Virus record (IMG/VR): IMGVR_UViG_3300047554_000303
Coordinates: 27,621 to 91,620 of that record
Length of the DNA stretch: 64,000 nucleotides
From: a virus
Direction: 5' to 3' (one strand)
The notes under the pieces were generated by a model, which made no database searches, was not told the DNA's origin, and was given only the letters and a program-made list of their open reading frames with translations. The translations under genes were made by a program, and so were the position numbers. This document shows positions 2,683 through 5,407 of this stretch, piece after piece; positions within the stretch are counted from its first letter, which is position 1, and each line of letters opens with the position of its first letter.

Positions 2683-3312
2683 CTAGTCTATGTCTAGATA
2701 GCGTCGAATAGTGGACTTGTAGGTGACCAAGCTTGGGTGGTCTAGAGGCAGAACCTCAGTCGACCTTCCAGGCTTGAAGCCTGCGTGGACAATTAGTCCA
2801 TCACCTACGTAAATACTGGAGTGAAAGTATCCAGATGAATTACCAAATACGATGATGTCTCCTATTTGGGGCTTTTCCACCTCAGTGCCTAGCTTGGCTT
2901 GCTTAGCGGCAGAGTGGGGTAGTTCTACGCCCATTTCTCCGTAAGCCCAAGTGACTAGGCCTGAGCAGTCCCATCCAAGTGGCGTAGAGCCACTGAAGAC
3001 GTATCTGGTCTTTCCTACACGGTCTAGTACTGCTGTAACCATTGCTTCTAGTTCAGCTCTGTTAGAGACCTTCTGCTGCTCATACACCGCAGCTAGTTTG
3101 TTCTTCCTAACAACAGTTAGGGCGTCTGCCTCCGCTTTCGCAGAAGCTAGCTTTGCATCTTGTTCTAGTTGTGTTACTGCAGTCTTCGTTCCTAGCGGAG
3201 TGCTGTACTCCACCACTGGAAGTTCAACTGTTGTTCTTGTTTCCTGGGCGATTGCCGCTCCCGAAAGCGCCAGCAGGGATGAAACAGTAATGATTATTAC
3301 TGACCTCTTCAT
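2683..3312 (-). CDS. Secreted NlpC/P60 cell-wall endopeptidase (lysin)
   Basis: 209 residues. A signal peptide occupies about 1-22 (basic MKR, hydrophobic core, AIA cleavage site), so the enzyme is exported by the host secretion system. Residues 45-95 are helical and charged. The NlpC/P60 domain fills about 90-209, with catalytic Cys in WDCSGLV (C116), His in HSSIYVG (H164) and a third polar residue in IVHAG (H176). The family cleaves peptide bonds in peptidoglycan stems. Position in a cassette with a holin-like gene suggests a host-lysis role; being secreted, it may rely on membrane depolarisation for timing. Start is the ATG at 3312. Confidence 0.88.
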   Translation of the reverse strand: MKRSVIIITVSSLLALSGAAIAQETRTTVELPVVEYSTPLGTKTAVTQLEQDAKLASAKAEADALTVVRKNKLAAVYEQQKVSNRAELEAMVTAVLDRVGKTRYVFSGSTPLGWDCSGLVTWAYGEMGVELPHSAAKQAKLGTEVEKPQIGDIIVFGNSSGYFHSSIYVGDGLIVHAGFKPGRSTEVLPLDHPSLVTYKSTIRRYLDID

Positions 3313-4715: not shown

Positions 4716-4750
4716 GGGGCCAGACCTGCCGCAGCAATGGGTCTGGCCCC
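4716..4750 (-). terminator. Strong hairpin, likely terminator
   Basis: Perfect 11-bp stem (4716-4726 ggggccagacc with 4740-4750), 13-base loop. On the minus strand it is followed by CATTTTCATT, a weak U-tract. It would end a transcript coming from the gene-free region to its right before hsp20. Confidence 0.6.
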
Positions 4751-5257
4751 CAGCCGTTAGGTCTTGCGGTTACTCGGATTGCTCTCTGCATAGCCGTAAA
4801 CGGGTTTGTTAGTTCTATCTTACAACTTAATCTCTTGCGAGGTGCTGAACAATTACGAACCGCAGGTGTAAGTCTAGGAAGCAATCCCGTGGTTGGCCTA
4901 ATGCCTGTAATCAGGTTTAACCAACCAAGTGCGGTTGCTTCGCACCCCGACTAAGAATCGAACTTAGCAAGACAAGTTTTGGAGGCTCGTCCGTACCCAG
5001 TACTCAAGGCGTAGTATGACTCAGGGCCCGACTGTTACGTCTGCGGCCCTGAGTGCTCACATTAGTTAGTGTAGCAAACCGAGTGGACTAAGTGTGTAGT
5101 TTCCCACACGCCGTGTTCGGCTTTGCCGTGGGCAGTCAGGCGACGAAACCTGAATTACGCCCTCGTCTAGGCCTGCCCTATTCCGATACGCACCTCGGAA
5201 AAACAGTGTCAGGTTATCTGCAGTTCGCCTGAACGGATATGTGACCTACACCAAAAG
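4751..5257 (-). ncRNA. Candidate large structured non-coding RNA
   Basis: About 500 bases without a plausible gene, bounded by hairpins at 4716-4750 and 5268-5282. Complementary pairs visible by eye: 4776-4783 with 4880-4887 (8 bp), 4765-4771 with 4858-4864 (7 bp, would form a pseudoknot with the previous one), 4891-4896 with 4921-4926, 4929-4933 with 4941-4945, 5019-5028 with 5045-5054 (10 bp perfect), 5130-5135 with 5173-5178, and 5181-5186 with 5195-5200. It contains a tRNA-like T-arm plus anticodon arm (4943-4989). Strand is inferred from the flanking terminators. Known giant phage-linked RNAs such as GOLLD and ROOL also sit near tRNAs; membership cannot be judged here. Confidence 0.42.
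4943..4991 (-). other. tRNA-Trp-like 3' half inside the gene-free region
   Basis: On the minus strand: T-arm CTAAG-TTCGATT-CTTAG (4967-4951), 3' acceptor strand TCGGGGT, then G as discriminator, the identity base of bacterial tRNA-Trp. The anticodon arm GACGAG-loop-CTTGTC (4991-4986 with 4976-4971) shows CCA (Trp) in the loop. No matching 5' acceptor strand (ACCCCGA) or proper D-arm follows in the expected place, so this is not an intact tRNA. Confidence 0.45.
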
Positions 5258-5267
5258 GGGAAAAGGT

Positions 5268-5282
5268 GTTATCATGGATAAC
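5268..5282 (-). terminator. Small hairpin with T-rich tail
   Basis: GTTATC-CAT-GATAAC hairpin, extended by flanking G/C pairs, followed on the minus strand by ACCTTTTCCCCTTTT. Likely end of the leftward operon that carries the DUF3310 gene. Confidence 0.5.
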
Positions 5283-5299
5283 CCCGTCGTTCATACCTT

Positions 5300-5407
5300 T
5301 TATTTTACTTCTTTATTGTGGCACCTGCAACTGCAAAGTGCAGTACTGCCCTCACCAGGGCAATTCTTGTGGTCGTTCTCTGAGCACCATCCAAACATTC
5401 CAGTCAC
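5300..5407 (-). CDS. Small Cys-rich protein
   Basis: 35 residues from a GTG at 5407 that has GGAG 5 bases upstream, starting 17 bases after the DUF3310 stop. The frame is open further upstream but only by overlapping that gene. Cys and His residues cluster (GWCSENDHKNC, then CSCRCH), suggesting a single metal-binding knuckle. No assigned role. Confidence 0.55.
   Translation of the reverse strand: MTGMFGWCSENDHKNCPGEGSTALCSCRCHNKEVK

Follow-up and report, generated by a model that had tools for sequence, protein, structure and literature searches.

A putative cluster of small structured RNA modules around a non-canonical tRNA-Trp gene in a viral genome

Introduction

Phage T4 makes two small stable non-tRNA RNAs, RNAs C and D, within its tRNA cluster. 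GOLLD and ROOL are phage-linked RNAs that lie near tRNA islands, and the linkers of GOLLD sometimes carry tRNAs (PMC12286853). The manA RNAs have been reported upstream of ibpA chaperones (PMC2864571). The locus described here resembles GOLLD and ROOL in being a phage-borne structured RNA region near tRNAs, in which a tRNA can lie inside the RNA region. However, the locus had no Rfam match, and it comprises small separable modules in reshuffled order, where GOLLD and ROOL are each a single RNA hundreds of bases long. It resembles manA (RF01745) as a structured phage RNA, and a true manA is found beside two of its modules in a related array; however, none of the modules A, B, C, or T matches the manA family, and the analyzed virus record had no manA match. 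The modules may also act as stable RNAs beside phage tRNAs, like the T4 RNAs. T4 has two such RNAs; the modules described here number at least four, and they recur in different phages in changing order.

Materials and Methods

The window (the whole 64,000-nucleotide stretch of DNA analyzed) represents bases 27,621–91,620 of a 91.6-kb virus record. Related viral contigs (numbered with the prefix L) were found via Hsp20 and short DNA patterns, and several of these sister contigs may be fragments. Rfam membership was tested where Rfam 15 holds a covariance model. The alignments of modules A, C, and T and of the tRNA were small (4–5 sequences) and partly made by hand, and the pairs of A and C were counted on hand-made alignments.

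Results and Discussion

Genomic Context and Strand

Among the proteins encoded in the window are a tail sheath and a DNA polymerase of family A, with best named matches in Streptomyces phages such as LuckySocke and BRock (36–42% identity), which makes an actinobacterial host plausible. The locus is flanked on one side by an Hsp20 gene (4577–4050, minus strand, PHROG 432) and on the other by a short ORF, likewise on the minus strand, whose end is at 5300. An earlier note on this DNA had reported a gene-free stretch, and no plausible protein gene was indeed present between the Hsp20 start and the end of this ORF. The stretch does include a tRNA-like gene, however, and hence is not featureless. 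Folding beat dinucleotide shuffles on both strands (z of −6.0 on the minus and −4.05 on the plus strand; 0 of 100 shuffles). The predicted RNA is assigned to the minus strand from the orientation of its neighboring genes, of the tRNA, and of every homologous module. The stretch had been described as bounded by terminator-like hairpins, but the terminator scan found 0 at either edge; scans of the window locus for promoters or terminators found none. The features are listed in Table 1.

Table 1. Features of the RNA locus, in minus-strand order.
Feature	Position	Strand	Structure	Support or homologues
Module C	5181–5289	−	Three hairpins around a conserved GGTGCGT loop: P2 (5269–5265/5252–5248), P3 (5232–5228/5213–5209), P4 (5200–5195/5186–5181)	L009, L008, L145/L154, L166
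Segments F and G	5062–5180	−	Hairpin-rich	97% identical in L009, nowhere else
Segment H	5015–5062	−	10-bp perfect hairpin (5054–5045/5028–5019), just 5′ of tRNA-Trp	None found
Non-canonical tRNA-Trp(CCA)	4943–5010	−	Anticodon 4982–4980	Relaxed ARAGORN, alignment, covariation
Module A	4878–4941	−	Outer stem, GGTTGG/CCAACC stem, CCTG/CAGG hairpin, conserved joining strands	L010, L145, L146
Module B	4819–4872	−	Three-way-junction RNA	10 records, covariation, covariance model
Segment I	4751–4811	−		Only other copy in L009, directly after G there
Module T	4716–4750	−	11-bp stem, 13-nt loop CAYTGC-NNRG-GCA	Five phages

The earlier note had also suggested membership of GOLLD or ROOL, and the Rfam scans returned no such match. 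The whole-window scan at the gathering threshold gave only a tRNA elsewhere, and scans of the gap between the flanking genes at E ≤ 10 gave chance matches only, none of them to GOLLD, ROOL, OLE, HEARO, or raiA. The manA model gave no match above 55.2 bits in the window record. A small self-cleaving ribozyme was rejected, as there was no Rfam ribozyme match. The idea of a Y RNA bound by a Ro-like protein was dropped as well, since no TROVE protein was encoded in the window record or in the module-bearing sister contigs, some of which are fragments. No description of modules A, B, C, and T was found in the open-access literature, and searches of named phages of Streptomyces, Rhodococcus, and Acinetobacter did not find them. 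The stretch was not found in plasmids.

The Non-canonical tRNA-Trp

When the gap was compared by BLAST with 50,697 phage records, 20 Acinetobacter records and two weak Vibrio matches were returned, all on one segment. Over its core, the tRNA-Trp shares 83–91% identity with a sequence carried by these 20 Acinetobacter phages. This sequence is annotated as tRNA-Trp(CCA) in phiAbaA1; most other records either do not annotate it or show a "hypothetical protein" or the end of GroES across it. Default ARAGORN and Rfam missed the window copy, and relaxed ARAGORN detected it.

Judged from its sequence, the segment is an unusually short tRNA-Trp(CCA) with an odd, covarying cloverleaf. It possesses a 7-bp acceptor stem, a 7-bp anticodon stem, a normal T-arm, the CCA anticodon, and a discriminator G. 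The standard D-arm and its spacing are replaced by a miniature hairpin of 4 bp with a 3-nt loop (GTAC-TGG-GTAC, 5003–4993), directly 3′ of the acceptor stem. In the gapless alignment, 23 pairs were scored with 98.9% of cells paired and 8 pairs doubly changed, and 0 of 500 shuffles reached the score, a test inflated, like the other shuffle tests here, by the relatedness of the sequences. Three of the four mini-D pairs were doubly changed in another phage group. With a model of this tRNA, the window and Acinetobacter copies scored 93–102 bits, and every other tRNA searched scored below 33. The tRNA-Trp of phiAbaA1 and its relatives has the same mini-D, 7-bp-anticodon-stem cloverleaf as the window copy. 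However, the Acinetobacter copies examined encode CCA, whereas the window copy does not, ends with GCGA, and lies among different modules.

A tRNA with neither a normal D-arm nor an encoded CCA, in a gap with no standard tRNA, could be read as the remnant of a tRNA array in decay, with structure that is due to chance. We consider this highly improbable, and the covariation already disfavors it: the mini-D pairs were kept through double changes in another phage group, the pairs of B, T, and the tRNA were kept, and the window copy of module B scores 88 bits, near the consensus. Default gene finders overlook this mini-D tRNA-Trp. Its presence in cultured Acinetobacter phages provides a directly testable phage counterpart of the reduced mitochondrial tRNAs.

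The RNA Modules

Module B comprises an outer stem, a TGC/GCA hairpin with a conserved GTTCGTAAYTGTTC loop, and a CTC-GNAA-GAG hairpin. In the alignment of 10 records, all 13 pairs were 100% paired and five were doubly changed, and 0 of 500 shuffles reached this; sliding the pairing partner gave nothing comparable. The covariance model (R1) found one strong copy per record with E below 1e-18. Pattern matches in L144 and L147 were rejected as chance, since they lay outside tRNA arrays and matched the model over only 15–16 bases. The module has 35 invariant columns, and its joining strands and loops are conserved far beyond the stems, which suggests a binding partner. We noted a resemblance to what we take to be a 23S peptidyl-transferase segment. 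Mimicry of rRNA was dropped because the CTC/GAG part is merely a stem, which becomes CCA/TGG in L142.

Module A begins 1 nt past the tRNA-Trp. In the hand alignment of four sequences, 3 of its 12 inner pairs were doubly changed. Among the homologues of module C the stems were replaced, while the hairpins and the loop were kept. In a hand alignment, the observed score was reached by 0 of 2000 shuffles for P4, the stem around the GTGCGT loop, and by 3 of 2000 for P2. Matches to the C pattern in L160–L165 and L167 were due to chance, as they fell in coding-looking DNA where the C structure was absent. Module T was found on three unrelated stem sequences in five phages, and its 14 pairs were 100% paired with 8 doubly changed. 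A terminator role of this hairpin (4750–4716) was rejected because the loop is structured and conserved on changed stems and no U-run follows it in the other phages.

The modules are often packed closely against tRNAs. Module B starts 2–7 nt past the 3′ end of a tRNA or tRNA-like sequence in 6 of 10 loci, and module C in L145 ends 3 nt before tRNA-Asn. Such abutment, with A next to the tRNA-Trp, would fit modules that are folded spacers, insulating tRNAs and guiding their trimming, with no separate function after cutting. This explanation seems unlikely to us, since some copies lie 70–190 nt from any tRNA and the loops and joining strands of B are conserved well beyond its stems.

Reshuffled Order in tRNA Arrays

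Outside the window, modules A and B were located in a tRNA array in every locus; in the window they flank the tRNA-Trp. Module T and most copies of C were also found in tRNA arrays, L009 being the exception. The order varied: C-tRNA-A-B-T in the window, tRNA-Asn-T-B-A-tRNA-Trp in L010, tRNA-Asn-T-tRNA-Trp-B-tRNA-Thr in L138, and C-tRNA-Asn-T in L008. Module C occurred without T in L166.

The sister contig L009 is 97% identical to the window over its 5′ part, and the unit from C to T is 97–80% conserved. L009 lacks exactly the block of tRNA-Trp, A, and B that lies between ACTAAC repeats. In L009, which has no recognized tRNA, C, F, G, I, and T remain together, so a single larger RNA could account for part of the stretch. 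Under this explanation, C-F-G-I-T would form the body of a large ornate RNA in the manner of GOLLD or ROOL, and the tRNA-Trp, A, and B block would be an insert in one of its loops. Without the block, G and I abut, GGTTTG/CAAACC and ACTCGG/CCGAGT can pair across the join, and the computed minimum-energy fold of L009 forms part of such a join-spanning stem. The conservation of C to T as a unit also fits. However, B, A, C, and T were each found apart and in other orders, GOLLD and ROOL gave no Rfam match, and the pairing of the body comes from two near-identical sequences, so it has no covariation. We regard a single large RNA as rather doubtful.

The complementary stretches quoted in the earlier note are present in the sequence (4776–4783/4880–4887, 4765–4771/4858–4864, and 5019–5028/5045–5054), and the first two had been proposed to cross as a pseudoknot. 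However, each of these two helices pairs segment I (about 4811–4752) with module A or module B, and they compete with helices kept across phages, namely the outer stem of A and the TGC/GCA stem of B. The crossing pairing is also impossible in loci that have A or B but lack segment I. The proposed pseudoknot is therefore not supported.

In the window, L008, and L009, the RNA lies on the same strand as the Hsp20 gene and about 140 bp upstream of it, and one sister array contains a manA. That the RNA serves Hsp20 as a cis-acting leader is nevertheless quite unlikely, as A, B, C, and T are not adjacent to Hsp20 in the other phages and the window record gave no manA match.

Proposed Organization of the Locus

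The earlier note was right that structured non-coding RNA is tied to phage tRNAs here. Its single RNA of about 500 bases is not supported, since the parts were found separately and in other orders and one block is cleanly missing from a 97%-identical sister. GOLLD and ROOL, which assemble into multimeric RNA cages, are single RNAs of several hundred bases with ordered helices, whereas the modules here are separate and vary in order. The same modules are reshuffled among the tRNA genes of related phages, and therefore they represent a set of undescribed RNA families, as opposed to a single giant RNA. The new class that had been suggested is thus not supported as a single RNA, but holds as several small families absent from Rfam 15, together with the non-canonical tRNA-Trp.

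On balance, we think it probable that 5289–4716 on the minus strand is a compact RNA gene cluster in which a tRNA-Trp and at least four modules, mobile among arrays, would be cut from a precursor into stable small RNAs. The cluster would be transcribed as a single minus-strand precursor, probably by read-through from the ORF that ends at 5300. This precursor would be cut into separate pieces by the enzymes of tRNA end trimming, and the modules may survive as free, stable small RNAs that act together with the phage tRNAs in the course of infection. What the sequences themselves show is the structure with its conservation and covariation, the changing order, the packing in the manner of tRNAs, and the presence or absence of the block. 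Processing into modules would be the simplest mechanism, in which we infer the cutting step and any target. A GOLLD-like RNA, folded spacers, an Hsp20 leader, and a relic are all less likely than processed modules.

More tentatively, the tRNA arrays of this clade might be RNA islands. They would hold a common pool of small trans-acting RNAs, with A, B, C, T, and manA among its families, which recombine, travel with the tRNAs in the manner of cassettes, and act on host translation or on tRNA-targeting defenses. Beside them would lie reduced tRNAs of the mini-D or acceptor/T-arm type. Annotation usually leaves the spacers of phage tRNA arrays blank. In the arrays analyzed, these spacers are crowded with covarying RNA families absent from Rfam 15, next to the curated family manA. 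If the modules are free small RNAs, such phages would bring a whole set of structured RNAs along with their tRNAs, and manA, which has been described as a 5′-UTR element, may have to be reconsidered.

Other Elements of the tRNA Arrays

A true manA RNA (RF01745; 72.1 bits against a gathering threshold of 55.2) was found in the tRNA array of L155 (G011; 2954–3135), between tRNA-Gly and module B and with module A also near. No manA-type gene directly followed it. In two Streptomyces phages, BRock and LuckySocke, sub-threshold manA copies adjoin tRNA-Lys, and a stretch with 73% identity lies in the array of Rhodococcus phage Francesca. Further recurrent array modules that are absent from the window were observed in L010, L142, L145, and L146 (e.g., L154, 2700–3020). 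One such module is tRNA-like, with the anticodon arm CTGGA-AGCAC-TCCAG; the phage collection gave no match. L140 encodes a phage tmRNA (630–975; tag ANSRSAFALAA) at the end of a tRNA array bearing modules B and D. Genes for TROVE (Ro-like RNA-binding) proteins were located inside the tRNA arrays of the Streptomyces phage relatives L172 (966–2552) and L173 (4252–5823); in all, TROVE was found in four such relatives.

Other non-canonical tRNA-like sequences that default ARAGORN missed were found in L151, L152, L153, L154, and L166, including Ile-like ones (GAT) of 66–68 nt; mononucleotide shuffles gave 0 such sequences. In the window, 3725–3657 on the minus strand is tRNA-like, with the acceptor GGGCTG/CAGTCC and a good T-arm, but its middle is taken up by a hairpin whose loop is CU-rich (TTTTGTTTCCTTT). 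At the equivalent position in L009 and L007, relaxed ARAGORN gives a tRNA-Leu(TAA)-like sequence. The arrays of L138 and L166 contain tRNA-like sequences of acceptor plus T-arm and leader hairpins, with CU-rich loops resembling the anti-Shine-Dalgarno sequence. The P2 loop of module C (window 5264–5253) is likewise CU-rich and anti-Shine-Dalgarno-like. Hairpin loops of the anti-Shine-Dalgarno type numbered 15 versus 7 complementary ones (shuffle mean 5, maximum 10), a mild excess that was counted post hoc. The 5′ leader of Hsp20 (window 4690–4578, minus strand) is conserved in L007–L009, and a GTATC...GATAC fold is possible around its ribosome-binding site; this leader is a possible RNA thermometer.
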